The position numbers were made by a program, and so were the translations under genes. Under the pieces are notes generated by a model, which was not told where the DNA came from, did no database searches, and saw nothing but the letters and a program-made list of their open reading frames with translations. Of a stretch of DNA of 55,581 nt, positions 6,183 to 55,581 are shown piece by piece; positions within the stretch are counted from its first letter, which is position 1, and every line of letters starts with the position of its first letter. Origin of the DNA: a virus; the IMG/VR virus record IMGVR_UViG_3300045242_000134, positions 1-55,581 of that record. One strand, 5' to 3'.

Positions 6183-9100
6183 TTGGCAAACAATTTCACA
6201 TTTACAGAAGAAGACTTCGCTCCCAAAAGTAAGTTCGATTTCACTGAGGAAGATTTCCAACCATCTGAAGTGCCTCAATTTTCATCAGACCGTAATTTAG
6301 TTCCACCCACACCGCAGGACACCGCAGAAGCACAAGCTCGAGGAAGTTTCGCCTCTCCAATCAATCAGGCTATGGAGACAGCAGGCCGTGGCGTGGTTGG
6401 CGCTTACAACGCGGCATTCGCTGGTCCACTGACAACACCGCCACTGGAATACGGAAAACCGCTGGTTCACCTCGCGGAACCATTGACACCCGAAGAAGAA
6501 GCCAGCATACCTCCGGTGCTCGCTGGTGGTTATCGCTCTGTATCAAAGGCCGCTGATGCCTTAACCACTCCCGAGATGCTGCTAACCATGCCTTTCTTGG
6601 GATCCAAACCCATTCAGGCAGCGTTTATGGCGCAGATGGGGCTGAACGTGCCTGGACAGGTCGAACGCGCCAAGGAGGTGCTCTCAGACCCCAATGCTTC
6701 GACAATTGAAAAAACTGAATCAGTGGTCGATCCGTTAATCACAGCGGGATTTACTGGATTAGCAGCGCGAGGATTAGCAAGAGAAACACCATCGACAGAA
6801 GTCGCACAACCAAAGGAAACAGATGCCAGCAAAGTCGGAGAAGCAGCGCCGGTTCATGCAGATGTGCGCACACAGCCCATCGAAGGCGAAAGGCAAGTGC
6901 CCACCGAAGAAGGTGGCGCAGGAATTCAGTCACAAGCCGAAGGACAAACGGTACGTGAAGTATCACTAAGTCCTTCTGAAACGCTCGAAAAAGTTATTCG
7001 AGATCCAGACTCAAAGGCCAACAACAAACATTCGACCGAAGCAGGCATGGCGGTGAAATCAGTCAAAGACCTTGACACGCTGCTGGATTTGCGAGACAGG
7101 CTTTTGAAGGAGAGCAAAGACTTGTTCAAACAATCGGCAGAGGAAACCGATCCTGCAAAGAAGATGGAGTTGATGAACAAGGGTGCCTTAATTGGTGTTA
7201 AATCACAACTTCCACGAGAAGCAATTGAAGTAGCGACCAATGTTGGTTCTTGGGCAGAGACTCCTGAAAAGAATTGGACGAACCTCGGTGAGCGTCCGTT
7301 GGAGCACTCAAAAAATCCAGAGGTGGTTGATTGGTTGCATAAGAACAAAAGGATTTTCAGCGAGGGTGTTGAATTGCCAGAGAAGACGAAACCCACCCCG
7401 ACCGAAACAGTTTTGGCCAATTACTCCACCACAGGTCACGGTCTCCCCGCTGGAGTGCCAGATCATGGCCCACAATTCGCCAGTGAATTGATGGAAGCAT
7501 CTCGTCAGCTTGGCGCTCTCGTCCGTAGCCGCGCCACACTTCGTCCGGGTGTCCTTGGCCAATTCGTTCGCACCAAACTCGCGGGTATCAAACAGGCCGA
7601 CAAAATTGAAGTTGGCGACATTCGAAATCAAAATACTGTTGCTCACGAGATTGGTCATAGCCTTGATGGAATTCTGTGGCCGACAGTGAATTTCGGAGAA
7701 AGCCAAGAAAGTTTAGCTGCGAGGTTAAGCCCGACATATTTCCCCACGAGCCAACAAGCGATGCGTTCTCTTGGTAAAGATTTATCCAAAGAACTAACCA
7801 GCGTCAGTGAGTTAATGCGTGGTCCAATGACCGGCAGCAAAGGGCATGTTGCCTATCGTAAACGCGCTACGGAATTGATTGCCGATTACTTCTCGCTCTA
7901 CGCACACGACCGTGATCGTGCTGCGGCGATGGCTCCAAAGTTCACAAAAGGATTTGAGAATGCCTTAGCCAAAGACCAAAACACTGCCGATGTGGTGAAA
8001 GGCGTTGTCAGTGGAAATGTCATTCCCAAACCGCCGCCGCCAGCACTTCCAAAACAGTTGGCAGGCATCACTGGCACACCACCGCAACCCGGCACGGCGA
8101 TGCCTGGACAAGTTCCGGCACCGCCAATCGCTCCGCCTCCTGTCAGAGAACGCGCAGCGGCAGTTGCCGCCGAAGGATTGGTTAAAGATGCTGTCAGAAC
8201 ATTCGCCGCAAAAGTTGAGAAGGCTCGTATCGTTGCTGACAACTGGAGGAAGTTTGTTAAGAGCCAATCGGATCGCAACGACGTGGGCGCTTTCGTTGAG
8301 GGCATCGGCAATCTGGAAAAACCCGGCGACACTATCGACCGCGTTCGCAACCGAATGACTCCAGCCAAGGAGCGACTGGCCAAAGACTACCGTTTTCGTC
8401 AAGAGTTGGAGCGACAGGAGATTAACAAATATCTTAAGGACAGCGAGGAGGGTGAGTATCTCAAATTCCTTGAAGATTATCTCGGTCACTTCTACGTGGA
8501 TAACACAGCAAAGCGTCAGGCGGCAATCTCTCGTTGGGCCAAAGAATCACCACATGCCAAGCAACGTAAGTTGCCCACACTGAAAGAGGCAGTTGACATG
8601 GGGCTCACGCCCATCACTCAAGACCCTGCTGTTACTTACGAATTGAATTCAAGAATCAATTGGCAGGTTGCTACCAACCGTAAGTTTGTTGATAAACTCG
8701 GAGACATTAAAACCGCCGCTGGCGCTGATGCTGTTGTTCCGGCCAAAGACGCTCCAGCAGGTTGGGAAATCACAAACAATCCGCTTATCCAGCGCGTGTA
8801 TGCCCGTCGTGTTCCGAATGGAGTTATGATTTGGAAAGGTGGCGCTGCAATTCATCCTGACATTTGGCGTGCTGCACGTCAGATTTTGGAAGCGCCACAA
8901 TCAGGCGACTTGGGAAAGGCTTATGATGCCATCAACGGATTCACGCGAGCTAATGCGTTTGCATTTTCCTTATTCCACGACCTTACACTTAGAAGTGCTG
9001 CTGTCGGATCGCAGGCAACTCTGGCAAACCCATTGCGTGGATTGGTCCGATTATTTGAGCGTCATCCTATCACTGGAGAACGGCAGATATTTGCCTCCAC

Positions 9101-10496
9101 CCGAGGACTTGGAAAAGAGTTACTTCAAAACGAAGACGCTGTTAGCGACGCCGCCGAACATGGTTTGAAGTTCTCTTACACCGACAGCGAAGCGTATCAA
9201 CACACTGCCCGAACATTCCTTGAGAAGTCTGCCGCTCGTTGGCGTGATGTTCCGGTTCTTGGAAAGGCAACGCGAATTGCACGAGACATTCAACAGTTTC
9301 GACAGGAAGGGTTGTGGAAGAACACTCACGATGCGTTCAAGATTATCACCTACCACGATTTGGTGAATAAGGCGCTGGAGGGAGCGCCACCAGGGACAGA
9401 CGCAAAGGGTGTCAAAGAACAAATCGCATCGTATCTCAACGACGCTTACGGTGGTCAAGAATGGCAGACCAAGTTTTGGTTGGACCCCGGCACCAGAAAA
9501 GTTCTTTCACGATTCTTTCTCGCGCCTGACTGGACGCTATCCACCCTCCGCAGCGTTCCTGGATTATCAGATGTTGCTTCAACCGCCCGCGAACAGGCTC
9601 CACGCATTGCTGGTCGTGAGACTTTTCCAACACCCAAAGAAGGAATTGAAGGCGCTGGTCGTCGTCTTCGATTCTGGGGCACCGAAGTTGCTGCCCTCGC
9701 GCTGGCAACTGCCGCCGCTCAATACGCAATCTACAAATCGTTTGGAGACGACAAGAAGGGTGACAAGCCCATGCCGTGGGATAACGAGTTGAATCAAAAG
9801 ATGCGTGTCGATGTGACGCCGCTGATGAGAAAACTTCCATGGCACGATCCAAAAGATCCAACTCGTCACTACGTCAACCTTGGAAAGCGTCCACAGGAGA
9901 TTCTCAACTGGTTCACTGAACCAGACAAGCAAGTGTTGTCCAAAGCCTCTCGTCCAGTTGCCATGATATTCGAGCAAGTGACGGGAAGCGAGGGCGATTT
10001 CAAAGCACCATGGAAACAAGACCACGAATCGTTTGTTGAGAGTCTCCCATCACGAGCCAAAGCTATCGGCACCGAAGCCCTGCCGTTCACGTTCAGGGGA
10101 AATCAATTCGCGCTGTCTGCACCAGTGCGTAAAGGCATGACCAAATACAAAGCACAACAGGCTTACGAAAGCGTGTTCGAATTGGCGACCAATCCCAATC
10201 GACTGAAATCACTGCTGCGTGGGCAACAACCGTCAGAAGGCACGCTATCTGAAATGACGAGTCAAATCACCGATGCCGCCAAACGAAACGGCGTGCCCGC
10301 CGAAGAAGTGTTGAAGCGTTCGCTGTCGGTTGTTCGCGGTCATCATTACAACGAGTTTTTCAAAGCGTTCGAAAAAGGTGACCGCAAAAAGATGGATGAT
10401 GAGGCGAAGGCGCTCATCACACTTGGCGCAACAGGACGTGGAATTGAAGAATCCGTCAAACGCCGGTTGGAGTTACAGCCGGTGGCACCTGAGTAA
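6183..10496 (+). CDS. Large internal virion (ejection) protein with gluzincin motif, 1437 aa
   Basis: The start is a TTG at 6183 preceded by AAAGG; the peptide begins MANNFTFTEEDFAP and the acidic 'FTEEDF' is repeated at residue about 20. A zinc protease motif HEIGH spans residues 488-492. A downstream ELIAD motif (Glu564) fits the third ligand of gluzincins. A proline-rich linker (about 620-660) precedes a long helical C-terminal half. That half contains a hydrophobic stretch near residues 1165-1185 ('VAALALATAAAQYAIYKSF') that could insert in a membrane. Length and position match the giant ejected proteins of podoviruses (T7 gp16-like); the zincin could cut cell-wall peptides or a virion partner. 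The enzyme activity is inferred from motif only. Confidence 0.85.
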   Translation: MANNFTFTEEDFAPKSKFDFTEEDFQPSEVPQFSSDRNLVPPTPQDTAEAQARGSFASPINQAMETAGRGVVGAYNAAFAGPLTTPPLEYGKPLVHLAEPLTPEEEASIPPVLAGGYRSVSKAADALTTPEMLLTMPFLGSKPIQAAFMAQMGLNVPGQVERAKEVLSDPNASTIEKTESVVDPLITAGFTGLAARGLARETPSTEVAQPKETDASKVGEAAPVHADVRTQPIEGERQVPTEEGGAGIQSQAEGQTVREVSLSPSETLEKVIRDPDSKANNKHSTEAGMAVKSVKDLDTLLDLRDRLLKESKDLFKQSAEETDPAKKMELMNKGALIGVKSQLPREAIEVATNVGSWAETPEKNWTNLGERPLEHSKNPEVVDWLHKNKRIFSEGVELPEKTKPTPTETVLANYSTTGHGLPAGVPDHGPQFASELMEASRQLGALVRSRATLRPGVLGQFVRTKLAGIKQADKIEVGDIRNQNTVAHEIGHSLDGILWPTVNFGESQESLAARLSPTYFPTSQQAMRSLGKDLSKELTSVSELMRGPMTGSKGHVAYRKRATELIADYFSLYAHDRDRAAAMAPKFTKGFENALAKDQNTADVVKGVVSGNVIPKPPPPALPKQLAGITGTPPQPGTAMPGQVPAPPIAPPPVRERAAAVAAEGLVKDAVRTFAAKVEKARIVADNWRKFVKSQSDRNDVGAFVEGIGNLEKPGDTIDRVRNRMTPAKERLAKDYRFRQELERQEINKYLKDSEEGEYLKFLEDYLGHFYVDNTAKRQAAISRWAKESPHAKQRKLPTLKEAVDMGLTPITQDPAVTYELNSRINWQVATNRKFVDKLGDIKTAAGADAVVPAKDAPAGWEITNNPLIQRVYARRVPNGVMIWKGGAAIHPDIWRAARQILEAPQSGDLGKAYDAINGFTRANAFAFSLFHDLTLRSAAVGSQATLANPLRGLVRLFERHPITGERQIFASTRGLGKELLQNEDAVSDAAEHGLKFSYTDSEAYQHTARTFLEKSAARWRDVPVLGKATRIARDIQQFRQEGLWKNTHDAFKIITYHDLVNKALEGAPPGTDAKGVKEQIASYLNDAYGGQEWQTKFWLDPGTRKVLSRFFLAPDWTLSTLRSVPGLSDVASTAREQAPRIAGRETFPTPKEGIEGAGRRLRFWGTEVAALALATAAAQYAIYKSFGDDKKGDKPMPWDNELNQKMRVDVTPLMRKLPWHDPKDPTRHYVNLGKRPQEILNWFTEPDKQVLSKASRPVAMIFEQVTGSEGDFKAPWKQDHESFVESLPSRAKAIGTEALPFTFRGNQFALSAPVRKGMTKYKAQQAYESVFELATNPNRLKSLLRGQQPSEGTLSEMTSQITDAAKRNGVPAEEVLKRSLSVVRGHHYNEFFKAFEKGDRKKMDDEAKALITLGATGRGIEESVKRRLELQPVAPE

Positions 10497-10498
10497 AA

Positions 10499-10530
10499 GC
10501 CGCTCCCACTCAGGAGCGGCCCTGTTGCTT
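10499..10530 (+). terminator. Probable intrinsic terminator after the virion operon
   Basis: GCCGCTCC (10499-10506) pairs perfectly with GGAGCGGC (10513-10520) around CACTCA, starting 3 nt after the stop codon. The tail CCTGTTGCTTTCC is T-rich but interrupted, so termination may be partial. It separates the late virion genes from the replication region. Confidence 0.7.
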
Positions 10531-10672
10531 TCCCTCTATGCACACCGTTCTTCTATGACTAGACGGTTCGAGATTCTCAACAAATCTCACTTTAGTCAAC
10601 AGATTGTTCTTGCAATCTGCGCCATGATTTTGTAACAATTCGTTTCAGCGAACGGCCAGTCGCATGATAACC
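10531..10672 (+). ncRNA. Structured intergenic RNA, two perfect hairpins
   Basis: No open frame with a credible start is present. GAGATT/AATCTC (10570-10575, 10583-10588) and CAGATTG/CAATCTG (10600-10606, 10613-10619) form perfect hairpins with 7- and 6-nt loops. CGTT/AACG follows near 10641-10654. This is probably the 5' part of the same leader as the next element. I see no convincing promoter hexamers inside it. Confidence 0.45.
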
Positions 10673-10780
10673 GGCTCTTTAAACGAATGCAGTAGTCCAT
10701 TGGTAGCGGCACCTCAATGTCGCTCTCAACCCTTGGCCGGGTGGGCGCTGCATTCGCTTAAGGAGCCAACGAAAGGCTCC
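10673..10780 (+). promoter_or_regulatory. Switch-like structured leader before the replication operon
   Basis: GGCTCTTTAA-A-CGAATGCAG (10673-10692) pairs with CTGCATTCG-C-TTAAGGAGCC (10748-10767) in a 20-bp stem with one A/C mismatch and one G-U. It closes a multi-branch loop with GCGGCA/TGTCGC (around CCTCAA) and ACCC/GGGT (around TTGGCC). The same 3' strand, GGAGCC (10762-10767), can instead pair with GGCTCC (10775-10780). That alternative hairpin buries the AAAGG ribosome site of the gene starting at 10783. Mutually exclusive pairings around a ribosome site are the layout of a translational riboswitch or attenuator. The sequence 'TAGTCCATTGGTAG' resembles a tRNA D-arm, but no T-loop is present. 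No known riboswitch consensus was recognised. Confidence 0.6.
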
Positions 10781-10782
10781 CG

Positions 10783-11058
10783 ATGGATTTAAAAACCCGC
10801 GACCGCAAACTCAAATGCCTCGAAGACATTCTCGAACAACCGCGTAACGATCAAAACGTCGTAGCCGTCGCGCTCTTTAAGATCTGGCACGACGCGCTTT
10901 GGGAAGTGTCCGACGACAGCTTTGATGAATTCACTCAGAATGAATTCGAGATGAGTGAGGTTGATGCGTTTATCATTATGAAGGCTGCGGCAAGCGCCGG
11001 TCAATTTCCTGAGTATGAAGCGGAGAAGATTAACGCGGAATTTGAGAGGTTGGGATGA
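10783..11058 (+). CDS. Small acidic protein, 91 aa, first gene of replication operon
   Basis: ATG 10783 follows AAAGG at 10772-10776, the site controlled by the alternative hairpin. The protein is acidic and helical ('DSFDEFTQNEFEMSEVDAF'), with no known motif. Its stop overlaps the next start (ATGA), so it is coupled to the following genes. As the leading gene behind a switch-like leader it may be a regulator, but nothing in the sequence shows that. Confidence 0.75.
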   Translation: MDLKTRDRKLKCLEDILEQPRNDQNVVAVALFKIWHDALWEVSDDSFDEFTQNEFEMSEVDAFIIMKAAASAGQFPEYEAEKINAEFERLG

Positions 11059-11651
11059 GTATGAATAATAAGTCTAACTTTGTTTTGGTGGCCAAGGTAG
11101 TGATAAAGAAGGAAATCGAATGGGTTTTGATGGACAAGCGAGAGCAACCAGTGTCTTTCGTTTACGCCCTTCAATGCGAAGAAACTTCGCGGGTAAAAAT
11201 AGGAATCACCCAAAATGTGCGCCAACGACTGAAAGACATTCGTGCGATGTGCTCAACGAATCTAAGATTGATTTTGTGCGTACCTGCCATTGGTCAAGAG
11301 GTTGAGTTGTTTCTTCACAGGGAGTTTGACAGGTTCCGGCTGCATGGTGAGTGGTTTGCAATACCGAGAGGTAGGATTGGAAGGCTCACTGGTTTGAAAA
11401 TGGATTACGACAGCAGAATTGAAATGGATGAAGAAGACGCTCCTCCAGAAGAATTTCCCGAAGAAGTTCGAATCAGTATTCGCGAATATCATCGTGAGCA
11501 AGCCTTCCAATCTCAAGAGAAGGAAGACGATATGTCGGCTTCCAATTTTACACCAAAGCCCATAAAAGAGTTTTGGAACGAACGACCGAATGGACCAAGG
11601 TCTTACGAAGCCTCAATCGCTGATTGCTACCCAGAGCACAATAGGATTTGA
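11055..11651 (+). CDS. T5orf172/MUG113-type GIY-YIG-like protein, 198 aa
   Basis: Residues about 34-97 read 'FVYALQCEETSRVKIGIT', 'RLKDIRAMC' and 'ELFLHREFDRFRLHGEWF', the hallmarks of the T5orf172 branch of the GIY-YIG superfamily (Y-A/L, K-I-G, R, then HR.F...R..GEWF). The C-terminal 90 aa are acidic and extended. Such proteins are common near phage replication genes; roles range from nuclease to DNA-binding accessory. It starts in the ATGA overlap and ends immediately before the next ATG. It could be a domesticated endonuclease rather than a homing gene, since it is colinear and coupled with its neighbours. Confidence 0.8.
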   Translation: MSMNNKSNFVLVAKVVIKKEIEWVLMDKREQPVSFVYALQCEETSRVKIGITQNVRQRLKDIRAMCSTNLRLILCVPAIGQEVELFLHREFDRFRLHGEWFAIPRGRIGRLTGLKMDYDSRIEMDEEDAPPEEFPEEVRISIREYHREQAFQSQEKEDDMSASNFTPKPIKEFWNERPNGPRSYEASIADCYPEHNRI

Positions 11652-12551
11652 ATGAAATCAGCCGCCAAAAGAGATATTCGCGCTGCTGCAAATGCGAAGC
11701 GCCAGAAGCGAAGGGATGAATTAATCACCATCGTAAATAACGGCATTCGTGACGTTGGAAAGGCTCTTATAGAACTGCGCGACGACGAGCACTGGCGAGA
11801 CACTCACAATAACTTTTCTGACTTTTGCCGCGACAATTTCAAAATCAGCAAAACTTATTTATACGATGTAATTAAAGGCATGGAGGTGATTGCATCCCTG
11901 CCGAAAGACGTGCGGTCAAAAATCACTAACGAAGGGCAGGCTCGCGCACTCGCCAAGCTGCCCGAAAGTAAGCGCGTGGGAGCCATTTTAAGCGCGGAAA
12001 AAAAGGGAGGAATAACTGCGGAAAGCCTACTAAGTCACGCCACCAAGCCAGCGCCACCAAAGTCCGCAATTGCGGACTCCGCTTTTATTGGAAAATCCGA
12101 ATCAAAAACGCCGTCAAAAAAAGAACCGACACTAGTCGATGACGTGAACACACCCATTCCTTTGGATGCGATGCCTTACGCAATTCGACAGAAACAAGTT
12201 GGGAGAGTTTTGAAAATTATTTCAGACCTTCGAGTTGATATAAAAAAGAATCGAGACGGTGGCGATCATCTGTGGGTAAAACACGGTCAAGACGCCTACG
12301 AATACTTAAGTCGTGCTTATAGCTACATCAGCGATGCGTCCCCCGACTGCGTATGCCTTACATGCCAAGGAAGTTACTCAATGCAAGAGGAGGGATGCAA
12401 TGCCTGCGGCAATACTGGAATGATTTCTCAGTACCGTTTCGACCACTTTTTGCCGAAGGAGATGCGAGAGATTCGGCTTCTGTCAAACTCGGATTACGTC
12501 AAGACTCACGAAGTAACTAAAACTCGACCCGACCCCAAAAATGTTTGTTGA
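11652..12551 (+). CDS. ParB/KorB-like DNA-binding protein with zinc knuckle, 299 aa
   Basis: Residues about 20-110 contain 'GKALIELRDDEHW', a helix-turn-helix-like 'FKISKTYLYDVIKGMEVI', and 'NEGQARALAKLPESKR', which resembles the ParB central domain. A Pro/Lys/Ser linker follows. The C-terminus has CLTCQGSYSM...GCNACGNTG, a DnaJ-type CxxCxGxG zinc pair (residues about 236-258). No ParA partner is encoded nearby, so partition seems unlikely. A replication-origin or regulatory role beside helicase and primase is more plausible, by inference. It overlaps the helicase start by 11 bases. Confidence 0.65.
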   Translation: MKSAAKRDIRAAANAKRQKRRDELITIVNNGIRDVGKALIELRDDEHWRDTHNNFSDFCRDNFKISKTYLYDVIKGMEVIASLPKDVRSKITNEGQARALAKLPESKRVGAILSAEKKGGITAESLLSHATKPAPPKSAIADSAFIGKSESKTPSKKEPTLVDDVNTPIPLDAMPYAIRQKQVGRVLKIISDLRVDIKKNRDGGDHLWVKHGQDAYEYLSRAYSYISDASPDCVCLTCQGSYSMQEEGCNACGNTGMISQYRFDHFLPKEMREIRLLSNSDYVKTHEVTKTRPDPKNVC

Positions 12552-14181
12552 ACGTGAATATCAAACGCGAGCCGAAGCCGCGATTGTTAAGGAGTGGGAA
12601 ACAGTTCAGTCCACACTTCTGGAATTAGCTACCGGATTAGGCAAGACCAAAATTGCTTGCGACTTAATCAAGCGCATGTATCCAGGGCGAACGATGTGGC
12701 TGACTCATCAGGAGGAGCTTGTTGGCCAAGCTGTCGAATCAATTCAAAAAGGGGCGGGCATTCCTGTAGAAATTGAACAGGCGTCTCAGTACGCCTCAAC
12801 AAATCTTTTCCATCGCACACCAGTTATTGTGTCCACCGTTCAGAGCCAGTGCTCCGGTCCAAAAGATGCGAGACGTTACAAACGATTTGATCCAAATGAC
12901 TTCTCGCTTTTAGTGGTTGATGAAGTTCATCACGGAGTTGCAGAATCTTGGAAGGAAGTCATCGCTTATTATTGCCGAAACCCGAAACTAAAAATGGTTG
13001 GCTTATCAGCGACCCCCAAGCGCGGTGACGACAAAGCCCTTTCTCAAATAATTCAGTCGGTTGCCTTCCAGTATGGGATTGAAGATGGAAAAAACGATGG
13101 TTGGCTGGTCAACATTGCACAGCGATATGTCACGGTTAACAGCCTCGATCTGACACATATACGAACTGTCGCTGGTGATTTCAATAAAGGGGAGTTGTCG
13201 GCAATGGTGGAGCAGGAAGAAAATGTATTGGGCATGTGCCAGCCAACCCTTGAGGCAGTATTTGGGCTGGAACCCAACACACTTTCCTCAATTCCAGAAC
13301 CAAAGTGGAAAGAATACCTTTCATCACTTAGCAGAAGGCCGAGGCGCACACTTGCTTTCACTGTGTCGGTTGCTCAGGCTGAAATGTTCGCCAGTGTATT
13401 CAGTCGCGCCATGGACGGTGTTGAGTGGGTGTGCGGCAAAACAAACAAAGAGGATCGAAAAAAGATTCGTGAACGATTTCTGCGTGGTGACACTCATTTG
13501 GTGGCCAACTGTGGGGTTTATCTCGAAGGTTACAACAACCCATTTGTTGAGTTGATGCCAATTTCACGCCCAACTAAATCCATCAATCTTTACATTCAAA
13601 TGATGGGCAGGGGCACGCGCACACTTCCGGGTATTGTTGATGGTCTGACAACAGTTGCTGAACGCCTTGAAGCCATCAAACGCAGCGAGAAGCCATTCCT
13701 TCGTATTCTCGACTTCGTTGGCAACAGCGGTCACAACAAAGTGAAAACAATTTCAGCTTATGATGTGTTAAGTGGCCACGTGAGCACTGAGGCGGTTGAT
13801 CGAGCCAAGGAGATTGCGATGAAATCCGGCACAACCAAGATGATCACTGTCACCATGTCGAATGCTCAAATTGAAGTGGATAGAAAAAAGAGAGAGGAGG
13901 CTGAACGACGCCGCAAATCCGAAGAAGCTCGAAAAGCAGGGCTACTTGCCAAGTCCAACTACTCAATGCGTGAAGTCAGTCCGTTCGATCACAATCACGA
14001 AAGGGTTCCATTGCACTCGCGTTGCTCAAAAGATGGAAGATTTTTCTCCGAAAAGCAGATGAAGATCTTGCGCGAGGTGGGAGTGAATCCTGCGAACATA
14101 AAGTATCGTCAGGGACAAGCCATCATTGGAAAGAAAATCGAAGAATGGAAGGCGAGAAAAGAATCAAAGGCAGCCGCATGA
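12541..14181 (+). CDS. SF2 DEAD/DEAH-type helicase, 546 aa
   Basis: Motifs appear in order: 'ELATGLGKTK' (Walker A, residues about 28-37), 'LVVDEVHHG' (motif II, DEVH, about 122-130), 'GLSATPKR' (motif III, about 152-159), 'LAFTVSVAQAE' (motif IV region), 'GYNNPFVELMPISRPTKS' (motif V region) and 'QMMGRGTR' (motif VI, about 353-360). This is the RecG/UvsW/type-III-restriction-like superfamily 2 fold common as phage replicative or branch-migration helicases. The C-terminal 110 aa are highly charged, then end in a small basic domain. The primase start overlaps its stop (ATGA), so the two are translated together. Confidence 0.92.
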   Translation: MFVEREYQTRAEAAIVKEWETVQSTLLELATGLGKTKIACDLIKRMYPGRTMWLTHQEELVGQAVESIQKGAGIPVEIEQASQYASTNLFHRTPVIVSTVQSQCSGPKDARRYKRFDPNDFSLLVVDEVHHGVAESWKEVIAYYCRNPKLKMVGLSATPKRGDDKALSQIIQSVAFQYGIEDGKNDGWLVNIAQRYVTVNSLDLTHIRTVAGDFNKGELSAMVEQEENVLGMCQPTLEAVFGLEPNTLSSIPEPKWKEYLSSLSRRPRRTLAFTVSVAQAEMFASVFSRAMDGVEWVCGKTNKEDRKKIRERFLRGDTHLVANCGVYLEGYNNPFVELMPISRPTKSINLYIQMMGRGTRTLPGIVDGLTTVAERLEAIKRSEKPFLRILDFVGNSGHNKVKTISAYDVLSGHVSTEAVDRAKEIAMKSGTTKMITVTMSNAQIEVDRKKREEAERRRKSEEARKAGLLAKSNYSMREVSPFDHNHERVPLHSRCSKDGRFFSEKQMKILREVGVNPANIKYRQGQAIIGKKIEEWKARKESKAAA

Positions 14182-14989: not shown

Positions 14990-15146
14990 CTCTCGTTCAT
15001 GACTGTAGGAAGTCAATGGGTGGCGAGAGCGAACTTGGATTTAGATTCCGGGATCGAAAAGGCTTCGGCCTCTCCGCACCCGTGGAGTTCCTACCGATAC
15101 CGGCATCGTTCCCGCAGCGAATAACGGCGCTGCGGGTTTTATTTTT
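14990..15146 (+). ncRNA. Promoter-to-terminator structured small RNA, about 150 nt
   Basis: No protein fits. Stem CTCTCG/CGAGAG (14990-14995, 15024-15029) encloses TGACT/AGTCA around GTAGGA. A UUCG-capped hairpin AGGC/GCCT follows near 15058-15072. CGAT/ATCG occurs around ACCGGC. The 3' end is a strong intrinsic terminator. With its own promoter it is a self-contained transcription unit. Host-directed regulation, RNA-polymerase binding or replication control are all possible; the sequence does not decide. Confidence 0.65.
15111..15146 (+). terminator. Intrinsic terminator of the small RNA
   Basis: CCCGCAGC (15111-15118) pairs perfectly with GCTGCGGG (15129-15136) around a 10-nt loop and is followed by TTTTATTTTT (15137-15146). 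This is the clearest terminator in the window. Confidence 0.92.
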
Positions 15147-43865: not shown

Positions 43866-43972
43866 CAGTTCCAAAAGAATCTATACTGACATTCGTAATA
43901 ATCAGTTCGCCACGGCTTTTTAACAAGCACTGTGGCGTAGCCATTGAGCATACAAATATAAAGATGCTTCAT
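43865..43972 (-). CDS. Micropeptide in sugar cassette, 35 aa
   Basis: ATG 43972 overlaps the radical-SAM stop (ATGA) and its own stop overlaps the methyltransferase start (TGATG). It opens 'MKHLYICMLNGYATVLVKK' and has an aromatic end. Coupling on both sides argues that it is translated. Confidence 0.55.
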   Translation of the reverse strand: MKHLYICMLNGYATVLVKKPWRTDYYECQYRFFWN

Positions 43973-45054
43973 GGCTCCCACTTCTTTCTGTCCACCAAAT
44001 GAAAATACATATTCGTTCGATACTTCAAACATTGCTTACAAAAAGCGTGCCCCGTTCGCTGCTCAATCATCTGCTCCGGCGTCGCGTCCAGATAATCAGT
44101 GAGCTTCAATCGCCTGTCAGCGGTGCACGCGCACAACGAAGTCTGCCCATCGTGACGGATGAAAGTAAACATCCCACCTGCACCTACCGGACACACGGAA
44201 GAAACTGGATACTCCTTATACATCTCACGAGCATTCGTCGGGGGTATCTTCAAACGCTCCATCGTTGCGATATAAGTATCGCCAACCGGGGGAAGAATTT
44301 TATTCCAGTCAGGCTTACCTTCAACCACTTCGAAGGGTGTGGCATCGGGGTCTTTGGAGCGGCAATATTGAATCGCATTCTCCATTGAAATCGCACGCGC
44401 CATTGAGGTAAAGAAACCAAGACCGAGATTCTTAGCATACTCGCGCATTGGTTCAATCTCGTGTTCGTTATCGTTATAGACGTGGTAGTTCACCGATATA
44501 CGAACGCGGCGTTCTTCTGGTATGCGATTGTTGGTTTCGGCCAGTATCCGCATGTTCTCTTTAACTCGTTCGATGTTGCCGCCAGCATGACCGCGAACGT
44601 AAATGTCTTGGGTAAACCCTGAGAGACTAATGATGATGAAATCGGGACGAGCGGTTAACACTTCCTCAACGCGATTGAGTTTGTTCAGATTAGTGGACAT
44701 TTCGGGATGCAGTCCCCAATCGTGAACGGCGGTAATGCACTCCGGTAAATTGGGATGCAGAAATGGCTCACTGTTGCCATACATAAAGACTATCGCATTG
44801 GAATTTTCCTTAGCGATTTTCTCAAGTATGGAGTTCATTAAATCCATGTCCATGAAACCACTTTTGTGTTCATAACGAAGTCCTTGAATCGGACGCTGAT
44901 TACCCTTGGTGCAGGTTGGACAGAATAGGTTGCAGGCGCTTCCGATCTCCAAAAACACCCGCCACGGTTTCAGCTTCACCGTATCCGCGCTGATAGCGCC
45001 GTCTATGAACGGGATGCAGGAGTCGGCGTAGGCTTGTTGGAGGGCGGTGGTCAT
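43969..45054 (-). CDS. Radical SAM enzyme with SPASM-like C-terminus, 361 aa
   Basis: ATG 45054 is 8 nt after the upstream stop; an alternative at 45087 overlaps it. 'EIGSACNLFCPTCTKGNQRP' carries CxxxCxxC for the 4Fe-4S cluster. 'FMYGNSEPFLHPNLPECITA' is the GGEP-like motif; 'LSGFTQDIYVRGHAGGNIER' is typical of the barrel. C-terminal Cys (VCPVGAGGM, CACTAD, FCKQCLKY) look like a SPASM or twitch auxiliary cluster. Targets in relatives are peptides or sugars. In this cassette a sugar or virion-peptide modification is plausible. Confidence 0.88.
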   Translation of the reverse strand: MTTALQQAYADSCIPFIDGAISADTVKLKPWRVFLEIGSACNLFCPTCTKGNQRPIQGLRYEHKSGFMDMDLMNSILEKIAKENSNAIVFMYGNSEPFLHPNLPECITAVHDWGLHPEMSTNLNKLNRVEEVLTARPDFIIISLSGFTQDIYVRGHAGGNIERVKENMRILAETNNRIPEERRVRISVNYHVYNDNEHEIEPMREYAKNLGLGFFTSMARAISMENAIQYCRSKDPDATPFEVVEGKPDWNKILPPVGDTYIATMERLKIPPTNAREMYKEYPVSSVCPVGAGGMFTFIRHDGQTSLCACTADRRLKLTDYLDATPEQMIEQRTGHAFCKQCLKYRTNMYFHLVDRKKWEP

Positions 45055-45061
45055 ACAAAGT

Positions 45062-46024
45062 TCATTCCTTTTCCCATATTTGCTCAAAGAAGCCTTCGGC
45101 CCTTAAAGGCAACGCTGGTTTTCGAGAGATGAGTTTGAGATTGGTGTTGGCCGAAACAACATCTCCAATGTGAGTTGCGAGTTCGTGATTTACTGATACA
45201 AACCTTCCCTTCTTTCGGAGCACTCTCTCAATGGATTTCACGCAATCTATTTGATCGTGCGAAAGAAATTCAACAATAGAATCTTCATTTACAACCAGAT
45301 CCATTTCTGTATCAGGCCAAGCCAATCCATGCACATGGACTGGGAAAAATCTGTCCTTAAGCTCTCCGTTTAACCAGACCTTATCCTCACCTATTTTCGC
45401 CATGGACAGGAATGCGAAAATAGATGCCATTATGAATAAATCTCGGGCGTGCCAAGTAATTCCAGGAATTTGCAATGCGAGCGCGGAAAGCCCCCCAGTT
45501 CCTGGACCTATTTCCAACACCGAGGCATTTGTAAGCATTGGCGCAAGTGTTTTGAAAAGCATGGTGTAATGCGCCACTCTCGGCTGAATCAGTTTTGTGT
45601 CCATGACTAGTCCACATGCTCCAAATGATTGCGGAATGCTTATATCGACACCCAAGCAAGTTTCAATTGACGACACTGCGTCTGCTAAGTTGTTTGGGGT
45701 TGGCAATCCCAACTCGATTGCACAAGATGAAATTGTCGATTTGATAAATTCAGGGTAGTTCTCTCCGGGCCACTGAGAGTCTGCATAGTATTTGGGTAAA
45801 TCTACTCCGTGGAGAATTGAGCCGTCGTATAAGTGTTCGAGTTCCTTTCGGATGGTGGGCACATCGCCTCCAGACAGAATGTCATGGAACTTTTTTTGAC
45901 AGGAATCGAATATCATACCCCAAGTTGATTGCGGTGGGGCTGGAGAAGATCTGCGGGAGTAAAACTCCACCACTCTTTTTATTGCGTTGTCAGAGAGTGG
46001 ACACCCGTAACATTGTGTGATCAC
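45062..46024 (-). CDS. SAM-dependent methyltransferase (sugar O-methyltransferase-like), 320 aa
   Basis: GTG 46024 overlaps the stop of the gene upstream (GTGA). 'ASVLEIGPGTGGLSALAL' (motif I, residues about 169-186) is preceded by a 165-aa helical domain, as in putative sugar O-methyltransferases. 'MDLVVNEDSIVEFLSHDQI' and 'LRKKGRFVSVNHELATH' complete the fold. The substrate is unknown. Confidence 0.8.
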   Translation of the reverse strand: MITQCYGCPLSDNAIKRVVEFYSRRSSPAPPQSTWGMIFDSCQKKFHDILSGGDVPTIRKELEHLYDGSILHGVDLPKYYADSQWPGENYPEFIKSTISSCAIELGLPTPNNLADAVSSIETCLGVDISIPQSFGACGLVMDTKLIQPRVAHYTMLFKTLAPMLTNASVLEIGPGTGGLSALALQIPGITWHARDLFIMASIFAFLSMAKIGEDKVWLNGELKDRFFPVHVHGLAWPDTEMDLVVNEDSIVEFLSHDQIDCVKSIERVLRKKGRFVSVNHELATHIGDVVSANTNLKLISRKPALPLRAEGFFEQIWEKE

Positions 46025-47482: not shown

Positions 47483-47694
47483 CGTCTCACCCCAATCTTC
47501 GCAAGTATCTGCCTGCCAATTTGAGAGTTAATGTAAACCTCCTTGAGATTTTTCATCTTGCAAAATATCTGAGCGGAAGCGAACAAGTTGAATGAGGCTA
47601 TGTCTCCGTTTTCCCAATAGACTCGACCATCCAATGTAAACAGCAGATAGCGTTCAAATACCCGATCCCAAAGAATGATGACGGGAGTGATCAC
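47479..47694 (-). CDS. Small protein, 71 aa, in sugar cassette
   Basis: GTG 47694 overlaps the stop of the large glycosyltransferase. 'MITPVIILWDRVFERYLLFT' then 'LDGRVYWENGDIASFNLF'. Beta-rich start, basic C-terminal helix. No family. Confidence 0.55.
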   Translation of the reverse strand: MITPVIILWDRVFERYLLFTLDGRVYWENGDIASFNLFASAQIFCKMKNLKEVYINSQIGRQILAKIGVRR

Positions 47695-49049
47695 GCCAAC
47701 ATCTCCTCTGACAGTTTGTAATACGCTCCCGGTCGTTCAATTCTCGTGTTGGGATTTTTCGTCCACTCCTCGACCACCACTTTCTTGTGCAGTCCGTGGG
47801 CAATCGCCAGTGGTAGGCTTTGATTCATCACGCATAGCTTCGCACCTGCAATCACTCTCGCCAACTCCAAAGCGTCTTTAGTAGGTCGATAATCAAACTT
47901 GCATTGAGGGGCAAATCCGCAGAACGCTTCATATTCTTGAGGCGTGCCCACAAACGTCATTTGCCGGTGAAATTTCTCAATGAACCGCGTCCAGTTGAAG
48001 TCAAGATTCTGATAGCGGGCCGTTCGATTCACTATGATGGGCTTGTCTGGAATTACAACTGGTTCTGGTACGGCCAACCATGGGACAGATGGCATGGGCA
48101 ACGAGAAAGCGTCCATGTGCAGCTTTAGTATAGAATCGAAATCGCGTGCGGTTCGATTTCGCCACGGAATGCGAAATCGGTTCAGGTCGTGTGTCGTTGA
48201 TGCCGGATGCCCGTGCGTGTAACGACATTTCAAAATGTAAGGCTGCGCTTCGACCAACGGCGCGAGGTTATCCACCCAATCAGCTTCGCCGCCCATCCTG
48301 GCCCAACGGCTGTTGAGCGGATACGGATAACGATTGTGCGGCGTGAGAAACATCATACCGCCGCCAAGAGCCTTGACCGCTGCGAGGCTATAAATCAGAT
48401 CGCCAGCATCGCCAGAGTGAGTGAATATGTTGCAGACGCGATGTTCGGCGGGAAGTGGTGTGAGAAGGCTATGGAAACCAAATTGGTTGTGCCAGTGGCT
48501 ATTGGTTCCGCCCCATTCTTTTCCATTCCAAGAACGCCCCTCAAAAGCAAATCGTTTTGCAATTTCCGGTGGAGCAAATCTAAATCCAGCCTTCTCGATT
48601 TCATCGCGGTGCCGAACGCAGATGCACGAGTCCTCTGGGTGGAAGTCATCCCACGGTTGTTTTGAAATCCATTCCATCAGCTTTTTGCTTCGGAGCGAAA
48701 AACCACCGTTCCCTATGATGCCACTCGGATTAAACGGAGCGCCAATGTAATCATACTTCAAAAAATCATCAGCCCACGCCTGCCCGTTCAAAACAAAACC
48801 ATCGTATTGGCAAATTAGCGCGTGAGTGGTATCCACATACTTGTGCATTTCACGGATGCAGAATTTGGAGTAATCATCAAGACCCGAAATGAGCGGTAAA
48901 ACTTTGCTATGGAACCATCGACTATTCAAAAACTTCACGTCTCCAAAGTCACACTGGTCCATGGACTTCTTCATTGCCATTTCAGACCAATGGGCTTTAT
49001 CCGTGCAATCCGCGCACAACAAAGTGACTTGTGGAAGCTTGGGCTTCAC
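47691..49049 (-). CDS. Two-domain glycosyltransferase: DUF5672-like plus GT-B/GT9-like, 452 aa
   Basis: Residues about 1-190: 'THALICQYDGFVLNGQAWAD', 'KYDYIGAPFNPSGIIGNGGF' and 'SLRSKKLMEWISKQ' are the DUF5672 signature (CQYDGF, DYIGAPW, GNGGFSLRS). Residues about 200-452: 'NIFTHSGDAGDLIYSLAAVK', 'IIVNRTARYQNLDFNWTRFI', 'MTFVGTPQEYEAFCGF' and 'VIAGAKLCVMNQSLPLAIAH' look like a GT-B fold near family 9 (heptosyltransferase-like). The fusion suggests two successive glycosyl transfers or a donor-acceptor pair. Confidence 0.8.
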   Translation of the reverse strand: MKPKLPQVTLLCADCTDKAHWSEMAMKKSMDQCDFGDVKFLNSRWFHSKVLPLISGLDDYSKFCIREMHKYVDTTHALICQYDGFVLNGQAWADDFLKYDYIGAPFNPSGIIGNGGFSLRSKKLMEWISKQPWDDFHPEDSCICVRHRDEIEKAGFRFAPPEIAKRFAFEGRSWNGKEWGGTNSHWHNQFGFHSLLTPLPAEHRVCNIFTHSGDAGDLIYSLAAVKALGGGMMFLTPHNRYPYPLNSRWARMGGEADWVDNLAPLVEAQPYILKCRYTHGHPASTTHDLNRFRIPWRNRTARDFDSILKLHMDAFSLPMPSVPWLAVPEPVVIPDKPIIVNRTARYQNLDFNWTRFIEKFHRQMTFVGTPQEYEAFCGFAPQCKFDYRPTKDALELARVIAGAKLCVMNQSLPLAIAHGLHKKVVVEEWTKNPNTRIERPGAYYKLSEEMLA

Positions 49050-51092: not shown

Positions 51093-51535
51093 AACAGACC
51101 TACACCTGCCCCGAATGCCAAGACGATATTGAATGCGACGAGAACGCGAAGGCTTGCACCTGCCCATCGTGCAAAACCGAGTATCGAATTGACCACGATG
51201 CGGAACAAATCGAGGGCGTTTGGAAGGATCGCACGACACTTACGCCAGTGAATAAATGCACAGAATGCGGCACTGAAATACCGAACGACATTTGGAAAGA
51301 CCCAATGGTTCGCGAAGCACTTAAAGATGGACGCAGTGCCGACGGTATTATGGTTATCGCCTGCCCGAAATGTAACCGATATGGTTACTACAACGAAGGG
51401 TCACATTTTTCCTGCCGGTTTTGTAACGAAACTTTTCACATTACCGATTCGGATGAATTTGAACCAGTTACTTTGGCTGACACAATTACTGAAACAACTG
51501 AAGGCTACCACAACGAGACTATGCCGCATAATTAA
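51089..51535 (+). CDS. Multi-zinc-ribbon protein, 148 aa
   Basis: ATG 51089 overlaps the previous stop. Three CxxC pairs are seen: CPECQDDIEC...CPSC (residues about 7-30), CTECGTEIP (about 56) and CPKCNRYGYY...CRFCNETF (about 90-112). Probably binds nucleic acid or bridges proteins. Its end overlaps the terminase end by 17 bases, with no terminator between these converging genes. Confidence 0.75.
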   Translation: MKQTYTCPECQDDIECDENAKACTCPSCKTEYRIDHDAEQIEGVWKDRTTLTPVNKCTECGTEIPNDIWKDPMVREALKDGRSADGIMVIACPKCNRYGYYNEGSHFSCRFCNETFHITDSDEFEPVTLADTITETTEGYHNETMPHN

Positions 51536-53312
51536 GTTCGTGCGATTCCCTCAACTTCCTCGACTTCGAAATCAGGTCAGTAATCCATTCGTGGTTTGAA
51601 CTGTCTTCTTCAAGGTTCACCATCTTCTTGATTTGGAAACCTCGGCGTCGTGCGCCTTCAAGAACTATCGCCGCCCAATCGTAAAGGTCTGGTGATTGGC
51701 CTGTGCGTTCCTTCATCTTCATCTTCGGCTCAATCTCAATCTTGTTACCAGCAACCTCACTCCACTCGCGCATACAACCGTCGTCAATCACCTCCTCGAT
51801 TAGCCCGCGCACTTGACCGGCGACAATCGCATAGCGCGTTGACCACCACAGTTCGGATACGAATTTCGAGTAGTGTTCTTTGCACGTCTTAAGTCGCCGC
51901 TGACCATTTCGGTCCATGATGTAATGGTCCATGGTCACGGGTCGATCACTTGGGCTTCCTCCAAATTCAACAGGGTTGATGTTCGCACTCCATATGCGGG
52001 CAAGTGATGGACCGAGACTGCCGCGCCCAGTTGAATCGTAAAACATATTCTCTGGCGGGATGCCATTGCTTTGGCAAAAGTTTCTCACCCACTCTGCAAT
52101 CTGGTCTTCGGGAAGCTTCGGGATGTTCACCACGATTGGAACGATGACCGGCTTCCAGTATTTCAAAATCGTAGCACCTTGAACATCTCGACCAAACTCA
52201 CCGTAGCCACCCACGCAGCGATCACCGCCCGCGCCACCGTAAGCGGCGTCCAATCCGAATATCTTGACGCGTGGACTACCATCCCAAATCACATCTTCCA
52301 GCGCCTTGTTTTGCTTGCACAGTTGAAAGCTGATAACGCGCTTGGCATTAAGACCCGATTTGCGAACACCCAACGCTTGCGAATAATACTGGTGAGAATC
52401 TTTGCCGTAACCGGCGATGACGCGCTCGATTGAATCCTGGTTGAGCATTCCACTGAATTTGTCCTTCGTCTCTTTGTCGAAGTTCGGGCTATCAGGACCG
52501 TAGAGACAAATCGTGCGACTATTGAGGAACCGGCGATTCTTCCAAACCGTTGTCTTGGTTGGCTCAGGCATTGATTCCCAACCGCACTCAGGTTCAGCGA
52601 GTTTATCCAGCGGATCGTTCTGGCCAATTGGGTTGCCGTCAAAGATGCCCTTGTAATCACCGCTGTTCATGTTGCCGATAGACTCAAGCATACCCGGCCC
52701 CATGAACTGCATTTCATTTCCCAAATGGCGACGACGCTTTTGTTTGATGCCCACGTAGGGTGCAATCGACTGAAACTCGCCAGTAGAAGTTTTGCACGCA
52801 ACACAGATGAGTCCTTTGCGCATATCGCGCACATCGCTCTCGTCTTCCAAGTCATCGGTCGAAATCGCTTTCTTGCTGTCGAGGACGTTGCCAGATAGCC
52901 ATGGATGTTTTAACCGAGCAGAACGAAACAGCATCTTAATGTCACCCCACACGCGAGTTTCGATGGCCACCAAAGTCGTTGAAGAAATCAGGATGAGTGT
53001 TGTTTCTGGGAACGCCCAATAATCGACCAATGCGAATTTGGAAATTGTGCGCGTCTTGCCACAGTCCTTTGGTCCGGTAACAACCGTGATGGTGTTGTTG
53101 ATTATTTCGGAGAGTATAAGGTCCGTCCATCGGTTTAAATACTCATCGGGCCAAAGGAGTTTAGTTGCTTCTCGGTAGTGGTGAAATAGCCCAAGCCCAA
53201 CCTCTTTTCCCCCGCTGATGTATTTGCCTCCCTGCTGAATTATGTGAAATTCTATTTTAAGCGCGTCTGCGTCATCAGGCCATTCAGCGTTATATCGCTC
53301 AAACATCTGCAT
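51519..53312 (-). CDS. terL: Terminase large subunit, 597 aa
   Basis: ATG 53312 (AGGT at 7-nt spacing) is preferred; a longer frame would run into the divergent gene. The ATPase has 'VVTGPKDCGKTRTISKF' (Walker A variant GPxxCGKT, residues about 77-93) and 'TTLILISSTT' (strand before Walker B). The nuclease has 'KIFGLDAAYGGAGGDRC' (first Asp), 'NMFYDSTGRGSLG' (second) and 'SPDLYDWAAIVLEGARRR' (third). It cuts and pumps DNA through the portal. No small subunit was recognised with confidence. Confidence 0.9.
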   Translation of the reverse strand: MQMFERYNAEWPDDADALKIEFHIIQQGGKYISGGKEVGLGLFHHYREATKLLWPDEYLNRWTDLILSEIINNTITVVTGPKDCGKTRTISKFALVDYWAFPETTLILISSTTLVAIETRVWGDIKMLFRSARLKHPWLSGNVLDSKKAISTDDLEDESDVRDMRKGLICVACKTSTGEFQSIAPYVGIKQKRRRHLGNEMQFMGPGMLESIGNMNSGDYKGIFDGNPIGQNDPLDKLAEPECGWESMPEPTKTTVWKNRRFLNSRTICLYGPDSPNFDKETKDKFSGMLNQDSIERVIAGYGKDSHQYYSQALGVRKSGLNAKRVISFQLCKQNKALEDVIWDGSPRVKIFGLDAAYGGAGGDRCVGGYGEFGRDVQGATILKYWKPVIVPIVVNIPKLPEDQIAEWVRNFCQSNGIPPENMFYDSTGRGSLGPSLARIWSANINPVEFGGSPSDRPVTMDHYIMDRNGQRRLKTCKEHYSKFVSELWWSTRYAIVAGQVRGLIEEVIDDGCMREWSEVAGNKIEIEPKMKMKERTGQSPDLYDWAAIVLEGARRRGFQIKKMVNLEEDSSNHEWITDLISKSRKLRESHELNYAA

Positions 53313-53347
53313 TGACTTTACCTGTTGACCGATTAAGAGTCGAGAAT

Positions 53348-54220
53348 ATGAGTCCTGCTGATTGCTGCTCTCCCTGTGATAGTCAAGTTGCACCAGTCAA
53401 CATTGTGGGGTCACAGGGGCCAGCGGGAGCGGCGGGAACCAATGGCACGAATGGAGTCAGCGCGTTTACCACAACCACTGCACAGTTTACCTCTCCGGCA
53501 GATCTTACAACAGCCTTCACTGTCTCAGTCGCCAACTCAACGTGGTGTGTTGTTGGCCAAGACCTCATAATTGGGCAAGGTCCAGGTGTGGCACTCGCAA
53601 ATCCCGGCCCGTGCGCGGTCGTCATTACAGCCATTCCTTCACCGAATGCAATTACGGTAAAGAATCTCCGCGTGGTTGATGAGAACGTTACGGTAAGTGC
53701 TGGAGCGTTGGTGTCAGTCAGCGGATTCCTACCAGCGGTGCCGGTGTTGATTTCGCAGGGTGGAACTTCGTCAACTACAAAGGCAGCGGCACAGACTGCG
53801 TTGGGGTTGGGGCAGAATTCAATCATCTCAAGCGGCGCGGCGCTGGCGCAGGCAATTACAGCAGCAAGCCTTCAAGTAGGAGCGATTGACGTGACTCTGC
53901 CTGCTTTGGGTTCTTATGAACTGCGAGGACAAGTTGGGATTGATTTCAACGGAGTCACCTTTGCGGCCAGTCGAACAATCACTGTTAAGATTCGCAATAT
54001 CACTCAAGCCAGCGATCTTGTGAGTGGTGTTTTGCACACGCAGGCGGTTACAACCCTTAGTTTCCCAACTCACTTTCTCCAACTCCCCCCACTTCGATAT
54101 GATACGGCTGGAGTGAATGATCACCTCCAGCTATTTTGCACCATTGACGTGATAAATTCAGCAGGCACGTTGAGTTTGGATTCTGGATCCTTGGAAGCAA
54201 TACCGCTTAGACAGAGTTAG
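53348..54220 (+). CDS. Virion fibre/decoration protein with collagen-like stretch, 290 aa
   Basis: ATG 53348 gives 'MSPADCCSPCDSQVAPVNIV', then a short collagen repeat (GPAGAAGTNGTNG, residues about 22-34), a beta-rich middle and a C-terminal domain of about 130 aa that looks like a receptor-binding or trimer head. The CCSPC start recalls the cysteine anchors of the decoration proteins at 29986-32158. It leads the plus-strand virion operon that continues across the circle junction. TTGACT lies 36 nt upstream. Confidence 0.72.
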   Translation: MSPADCCSPCDSQVAPVNIVGSQGPAGAAGTNGTNGVSAFTTTTAQFTSPADLTTAFTVSVANSTWCVVGQDLIIGQGPGVALANPGPCAVVITAIPSPNAITVKNLRVVDENVTVSAGALVSVSGFLPAVPVLISQGGTSSTTKAAAQTALGLGQNSIISSGAALAQAITAASLQVGAIDVTLPALGSYELRGQVGIDFNGVTFAASRTITVKIRNITQASDLVSGVLHTQAVTTLSFPTHFLQLPPLRYDTAGVNDHLQLFCTIDVINSAGTLSLDSGSLEAIPLRQS

Positions 54221-54764: not shown

Positions 54765-55581
54765 ATGCCTAACCCGCAGTCATCTCAATTCACCCAAACA
54801 ACGGTCTATGATTCGCTGTTCGGGTTCGAGAATGGAATGGACGCGGGCGTTTCACCGCTGCTCCTTCCAAAGAATCAACTCGCCTTTGGCTCCAATCTCA
54901 CGAACAGAGGGGATTTAGTTCACCCTCGACCGCCGCGTCGGATACTCACTCTCAATTTTGGAGGGAACACCGCGCTTCAAACTGCTGTCACCAAAGGACT
55001 ATGGCAGGGACGCACGTACTACAAACCTGATATTGGCCTTGAAACGCTCGTAGCTTCGATTGCAGGCCGTCTCTACCAATTCACCCCCATCGGAACAGTG
55101 GCGACGGTCATGGACATTACTGGAGGCAATCCACAAAGCGCCACAGCCCTTATATGCTGGTTGATCCAAGCTGAGAACTTCGTGCTGTGGAACGATGGCA
55201 TTAACCTGCCAGTGTTTTTCAACGGCACGACGACTGCGCGGAGTAATGGCACGCCTGCACCTGCTCCTACGTTCACAATTTCCACGGCGTTTGTGATTCC
55301 GACTGGCTACAATATCAATGCCGTTCCCGCACCTCCACCTCCCGTAATCACAATCCAACTGAATTCAAATTTCACAGGGTTAAACGGAGCTCCTTTCGTG
55401 ATTAACGGAGGCACTACTTTTCCAATTTCAGGAACAGTGATAAGTGGCCAAGGAACGCCCACCATCACAGTAACCGTAAACATCGTAGGCACCGATCCGC
55501 CGGTAGCTATTCCCGTTCAAGCAGGTTCGATATTAACCTCGCCACCGACAACTGCCGTTAGACAATTTCCAGTTGGCCGGA
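54765..55581 (+). CDS. Virion structural protein, N-terminal part (continues at base 1)
   Basis: ATG 54765 follows GGAGG (54751-54755) at 9-nt spacing. The frame runs off the window end in phase with base 1 (55455 equals base 1), so the full gene is 702 codons. The N-terminal pattern 'GMDAGVSPLLLPKNQLAFGS' then 'RGDLVHPRPPRRI' is a conserved start in uncharacterised virion proteins of environmental podoviruses. About 55 nt upstream lies the shared HNH motif, so the endonuclease gene separates it from the fibre gene of the same operon. Confidence 0.82.
   Translation, partial: MPNPQSSQFTQTTVYDSLFGFENGMDAGVSPLLLPKNQLAFGSNLTNRGDLVHPRPPRRILTLNFGGNTALQTAVTKGLWQGRTYYKPDIGLETLVASIAGRLYQFTPIGTVATVMDITGGNPQSATALICWLIQAENFVLWNDGINLPVFFNGTTTARSNGTPAPAPTFTISTAFVIPTGYNINAVPAPPPPVITIQLNSNFTGLNGAPFVINGGTTFPISGTVISGQGTPTITVTVNIVGTDPPVAIPVQAGSILTSPPTTAVRQFPVGR
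55455..55581. repeat. Right copy of 127-bp exact terminal direct repeat
   Basis: Identical to bases 1-127; see that entry. Joining the two gives a 55,454-bp circle. Confidence 0.95.

Follow-up and report, generated by a model that had tools for sequence, protein, structure and literature searches.

A structured leader RNA of conserved architecture at the head of a replication operon in uncultured phages

Which role is played by a long inverted repeat placed immediately ahead of the first gene of a phage replication operon? The repeat resides in the window, i.e. the whole stretch of DNA analyzed here (55,581 nt), a complete circular phage-like record with few recognisable genes. A preliminary description, made from this sequence alone, had interpreted the locus as a translational switch formed by two mutually exclusive stems. 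The fold, its setting and its counterparts in related phages are described below.

Fold and genomic setting of the leader

The gene upstream of the repeat (6183-10496, 1437 aa) ends at a terminator-like hairpin (10499-10520, + strand; 8 pairs, 7 of which GC, and a T-rich tail), which has a counterpart at the equivalent place in the related phage G1 (L014 4853-4876). About 90 nt past the hairpin, a promoter-like TTGCAA-17-TAACAA was read by eye on the same strand (10610-10638). The match is weak (7 of the 12 consensus residues) and absent from a strict promoter scan; the block is retained in G1, and transcription presumably starts near the 5' end of the leader. The first gene of the operon, ORF1 (10783-11058, + strand, 91 aa), carries the SD-like AAAGG at 10772-10776; it matched nothing in Pfam, PHROG or PADLOC. 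ORF1 is followed by an ORF with a T5orf172/MUG113 domain match (11055-11651; presumably GIY-YIG-like, with matches in neither G1, G3 nor G4), an ORF of unknown function, a superfamily-2 (SF2) helicase identified by domain match at 12541 and, downstream of it, a Toprim-like protein at 14022, the Toprim match being weak and below threshold. Helicase and Toprim-like protein bear out the term replication operon used in the preliminary description.

The arms of the repeat (10673-10692 and 10748-10767, 20 nt each) are 90% complementary and separated by 55 nt. The closing stem reported earlier is real, 18 of the 20 positions being Watson-Crick pairs, the others the pair U10678.G10762 and the mismatch A10683.C10757. 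The minimum free energy of the 10670-10770 region is -52.4 kcal/mol, vs. -29.5 +/- 2.9 kcal/mol in 200 shuffled sequences, none of which was as good (z -7.8). All components of the predicted fold lie on the + strand. The 5' side of the long stem P1 (10673-10698) is made up by outer (10673-10682), inner (10684-10693) and top (10695-10698) segments, pairing with the corresponding segments of the 3' side (10743-10767; top 10743-10746, inner 10747-10756, outer 10758-10767). P1 encloses two hairpins, P2 (10706-10723, pairs 10706-10711/10718-10723) and P3 (10730-10741, pairs 10730-10732/10739-10741), and is therefore a multibranch closing stem, as had been claimed. A further 5' hairpin, HA (10648-10663; stem 10648-10651/10660-10663, loop 10652-10659), had been missed, together with the complementarity of its loop strand CGGCCA (10653-10658) to residues 10734-10739. 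The partner of the HA loop is the P3 loop UGGCC (10734-10738); G10739 is used twice, in the P3 closing pair and in the loop contact. An ORF of about 42 codons, noticed by eye, runs from ATG 10664 through the entire folded region into ORF1 (10664-10792); no SD-like sequence precedes it, and a G1 counterpart was not seen by eye.

No Rfam model matched the window at the gathering cut-off, and at E<=10 the leader had two antisense matches only, both at chance level, in agreement with the earlier statement that no known aptamer consensus was recognised. Rfam scans of the loci hosting the leaders of four related records (G1, G2, G3 and G4) were equally negative, except for a separate tRNA-like element in G1. 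Leaders compared with annotated phages gave no match (3/3), a scan of folding minima revealed no recognisable second copy of the RNA, and no description of it was found in the open-licence PMC literature, which is no proof of absence.

Comparable leaders in related phages

Relatives were searched for in IMG/VR by protein queries. ORF1 retrieved G1 (3300045282_000096), and queries with the upstream protein yielded four records. G1, G2 (3300035118_000264), G3 (3300046529_001172) and G4 (3300014166_000001) share the upstream gene with the window; G2 is a 21-kb fragment identical in letters to G3 in the stretch compared. Four distinct leader sequences (window, G1, G3 and G4), all from uncultured phages, were thus available. 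The downstream helicase alone, used as query, retrieved no relatives. By eye, none of nine further, distant matches to the upstream protein had a comparable leader downstream, and genome contigs scanned with the same protein gave no match. A DNA pattern of the P3 motif hit eight viral contig records, G1 and seven which by eye looked like chance matches. A query with another structural protein added the fragment G6, which ends short of the leader region, and the complete but rearranged relative G5, the structural protein of which is 47% identical. No such leader was found in G5 after the counterpart of the upstream gene, where it was looked for.

Past the end of the upstream gene, G1, G3 and G4 have an intergenic stretch, then a promoter-like sequence and then an RNA built like that of the window. 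A comparable RNA thus heads a replication-type operon at the equivalent place in all four phages. Promoter-like sequences lie just before the leader in each of them, and in G4 the site is listed by the promoter scan (L018 9235-9262); these sequences would be promoters active early. The common plan includes a 5'-terminal hairpin, the long stem P1, the inner hairpin P2 and a P3-loop strand complementary to the HA loop. What follows the leader is variable. Window and G1 have ORF1 as the first gene, and G4 has a DUF6745 gene there. Further on, the G4 operon encodes a DnaB-type helicase with primase-like domains, so that replication genes, albeit different ones, follow the leader in this phage as well. 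The distance from the end of P1 to the start codon is 15, 127, 128 and 4 nt in window, G1, G3 and G4, respectively.

In G1, the leader RNA is immediately followed by a 100-nt tRNA-like element (L002 4883-4982), which separates it from the first gene. The element features an intact acceptor stem, a CCA end, D and T arms, and a 47-nt stretch in place of the normal anticodon arm. The element scores 42.3 bits with the Rfam tRNA model, and ARAGORN calls no tRNA. Its use as a host marker was abandoned: the 3' end is found in eight genome records (seven tRNA-Arg genes and one tRNA-Leu gene), and no host is claimed because their 5' parts differ.

Conservation of the fold

Window and G1 are 87% identical upstream of the leader and 95% identical in ORF1, vs. 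61% in the leader itself (65 of 106 aligned columns). The block that diverges from G1 (10649-10797) begins at the start of HA and extends into ORF1, up to codon 6 or so, as if it had been swapped as a unit. When 29 pairs were compared, 22 were the same, six showed changes in both partners with pairing retained, none a change in one partner only, and one was broken, in a hand alignment which was chosen to fit the structure, omits one bulged U of G1 and favours pairing. An automatic count, based on a model-fitted alignment, was left unused, its four distinct rows including the window antisense and a chance match. One pair of HA has both partners replaced in G1 relative to the window; equivalent hairpins are found in G1, G3 and G4. 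All four leaders fold better than shuffled sequences, with z scores of -5.2 (window, whole 125-nt leader), -3.6 (G1), -6.6 (G3) and -3.7 (G4), and none of 200 shuffles as good in each case. P1 stems span 15-26 positions with few mismatches.

In P1 read on the coding strand, G.U exceed A.C oppositions 10 to 2 (binomial 0.019; the bulged G1 U is omitted from these totals as well), which indicates that the folding strand is the transcript, and argues against a DNA palindrome. Inverted repeats are common at origins, and the location at the head of the replication operon would suit an element working at the DNA level (an origin or a protein site), the repeats of which merely look RNA-like. In addition to the G.U excess, two-sided pair changes and loop-loop complementarity suit a folded strand, and the cumulative GC skew has no clear extreme at 10.6 kb; a DNA element is accordingly the least probable of the interpretations considered, and a very improbable one.

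Complementarity between HA and P3 loops within the same phage involves 6, 7, 6 and 6 Watson-Crick bases in window, G1, G3 and G4, respectively. The observed complementarity was reached by 872, 11, 109 and 560 of 20,000 letter shuffles, values which for window and G1 are not independent. Across phages, loops of window and G1, sharing the motif, are complementary over 6-7 bases, combinations with and between G3 and G4, having different loops, over 3-4 bases. RNAfold handles no pseudoknots and is unable to represent the loop contact; it leaves HA unformed in G4 and proposes another 5' hairpin in G1. In the real molecule the two loops would be expected to meet.

A covariance model built on the window alone recovered G1 (E 5e-5), and neither G3 nor G4 at E values up to 1. 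Other matches were the window antisense (E 0.012), as a consequence of the long inverted repeat, and a second place in G1 (E 0.29). For G3 and G4, kinship is therefore argued from their place, their architecture and the complementarity of their loops. A structural descriptor combining the leader features, written with all four leaders already known, had 102 matches over 48 shuffled strands, each of about 55 kb, or 2.1 per strand, a rate which corresponds to a chance of about 0.006 (0.6%) per 150-nt leader, vs. four out of four leaders observed. The rate elsewhere in real genomes was broadly similar to that in shuffles, and in G5 the descriptor matched at about the chance rate.

No clear common core nor conserved bases were found in the four leaders, which share the architecture. 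Conservation of the closing stem is supported by compensatory change in G1 and by architecture in G3 and G4. At the level of sequence comparison, the structure, the conservation and the position of the leader may be taken as established, and an RNA which keeps its shape, including a predicted loop-to-loop contact, while its letters change is probably functional.

Modes of action

The switch envisaged in the preliminary description requires that GGAGCC (10762-10767), freed by the opening of P1 under the control of a ligand or a protein, pairs with GGCTCC (10775-10780), hiding the AAAGG used by ATG 10783. The two motifs can indeed pair, and translational riboswitches similarly feature two mutually exclusive pairings near the ribosome site. 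The alternative hairpin (10762-10780, + strand) exists as a predicted state; when enforced, the energy is -60.7 vs. -64.6 kcal/mol, i.e. 3.9 kcal/mol above the ground state, and the equilibrium pair probability is about 0.003 (about 0.3% of the ensemble), making it a minor form in isolation. Random combinations of a 21-nt strand with a 30-nt stretch contain a 6-base complement in about 7% of cases. Comparison of the relatives gave a divided answer, the closing stem being kept and the alternative hairpin being peculiar to the window: in G1, G3 and G4, the P1 3' strand has complements of at most 5, 4 and 4 nt, respectively, in the 30 nt ahead of the start codon. In G4, as judged by eye, the only SD-like bases would sit within closed P1, which is the opposite logic. 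A conserved translational switch is unsupported, because the hairpin is absent in three out of three relatives, distances from P1 to the start codon vary, as does the first gene, and the tRNA-like element lies in between in G1. Unlike translational riboswitches, the leader has no conserved ligand core, of the kind a metabolite aptamer needs, no Rfam match at gathering and no conserved expression platform. Specific recognition by the ORF1 protein is disfavoured since ORF1 is 96% identical in G1 and the leader 61%. The block diverged between window and G1 spans HA and reaches into the first codons of ORF1, so that the initiation region may move as one with the leader, a point in favour of the switch. 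The hairpin could be used in the window specifically; as an explanation of the leader, translational switching is improbable, and the plain switch reading, drawn from a single sequence, does not survive comparison with relatives.

The reading we favour, with a probability of roughly 0.4, is that the leader is a conserved RNA element with which the replication-operon transcript begins, and which acts in cis through its shape. Cis action of this type is the most likely because letters drift, pairing stays and the following gene is irrelevant; variation in distance and in first gene points to a gene-independent role, and a fold kept in a drifting leader next to a conserved ORF1 is better explained by a role of shape than by a specific ligand or the ORF1 protein. 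For a new 5' leader RNA conserved in architecture, functions in processing, stability or elongation are more likely than a ligand switch. With the RNA polymerase just clear of the promoter, the initial 20 nt or so would fold as HA, then long P1 would close around P2 and P3, and pairing of the HA and P3 loops would lock the leader in a compact fold. So folded, the leader may protect the 5' end of the message and set its untranslated part apart from the coding message. P1 may provide a long duplex on which RNase III-type processing could act; with 15-26 positions and few mismatches, the stems fall within the range of duplexes cut by RNase III. In G1, the tRNA-like element, as an RNase P-type substrate directly after the leader, could be the next processing signal. 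A contribution to processing or stability is what we would predict on these grounds.

The strongest rival is an antiterminator of the HK022 put type, in which the leader would bind the elongating polymerase and allow read-through of terminators in the early operon. In line with this, conservation is independent of the following gene, and a strong terminator-like hairpin (15111-15136, coding strand; 9 pairs, 8 GC, TTTTATTTTT tail) lies inside the early operon of the window. This single hairpin is all the support that terminators lend, because the density of terminator-like sites in the window operon equals that of shuffles (21 vs. 21.6) and was discarded as evidence. In the parts of the G1, G3 and G4 operons scanned on the coding strand, no terminator of comparable strength was found except the one preceding the promoter. 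The motif GCTCTTTAA, which we take to resemble rrn boxA, has two coding-strand copies, one in the P1 5' strand (10674-10682) and one at 10872-10880. The former would fit antitermination; however, the motif occurs six times over both window strands, so that a chance match is possible, and is confined to the window leader, being found in none of the G1, G3 and G4 leaders. Conserved letters, which would be expected as the polymerase surface is conserved, are missing. According to PMC9378689, putL is a structured RNA in the early phage leader just downstream of the promoter, a position at the extreme 5' end which the leader described here would also occupy, and put RNAs are about 70 nt long, with two stem-loops, a triple helix and required bases. 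Like putL and putR, the phage leader would be a structured early-transcript leader acting independently of the following gene; compared by described features, it differs in size (about 120 nt) and in having a hairpin plus three-way junction and a predicted loop-loop contact. Overall, put-like antitermination is rather unlikely.

A trans-acting RNA, cut from the leader and possibly multimeric via complementary loops as the phi29 pRNA, has a slim chance only. The G1 tRNA-like element could set the 3' end of such an RNA. Against it, no terminator directly follows the leader RNA, the start codon lies as close as 15 and 4 nt in window and G4, two of the four phages, and the window phage encodes a large-terminase-like protein (51519-53393; Walker-A-like stretch by eye, a candidate with no Pfam match). 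In pRNA the complementary loops are on two arms of one junction, whereas here one of them is on a separate 5' hairpin. In PMC12670572, pRNA is described as having a three-way junction, covarying complementary loops and an architecture constant over sequence drift, marks which the leader resembles apart from the placement of one loop. The two differ in loop topology, genomic context and probably packaging machinery, the phage RNA in question being an mRNA leader. More far-reaching, and doubtful, is the notion of a new class of leader RNAs in which a 5' hairpin docks by loop-loop contact on a three-way junction, all letters being free provided that the fold is kept, and which would program early transcription or message fate by riding the polymerase or by multimerising via the loops.

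Structured leaders are known from other phages as well. The lambda N leader contains an RNase III stem, and T7 early transcripts RNase III sites; these share with the leader a long irregular duplex in an early leader upstream of the ribosome site, and are not known to include a loop-loop contact with a 5' hairpin. For the leader described here, moreover, processing is a prediction. The T4 gene 32 leader, too, is tertiary-folded, lies upstream of replication functions and keeps its structure among relatives. Its pseudoknot serves one autoregulating gene, whereas the first gene varies after the leader of these phages. The leader is a new family within structured phage leader RNAs, set apart by its loop-locked plan. 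On the basis of four distinct members compared by sequence, the claim is good for structure, while the function is put forward as a proposal. If the element acts in cis, RNA alone would control the onset of replication-gene expression in uncultured phages with hardly any recognisable genes. Strong architecture and nearly free sequence make the leader a clean test of function by shape only, and the covarying loops suit a compensatory-mutation experiment.

Two observations concern the phages as a whole. The window carries a 127-nt direct terminal repeat (1-127 and 55455-55581), and end repeats in window, G1, G4 and G5 (127, 127, 123 and 127 nt, respectively) are as expected of circular assemblies. 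The window also encodes two proteins that are uncommon cargo in a phage as small or large as this one, a radical SAM-like protein (43969-45087; CxxxCxxC stretch noticed by eye), matched in G1 and G6, and a DUF5672 protein (47691-49049), matched in G1, G3 and G6.
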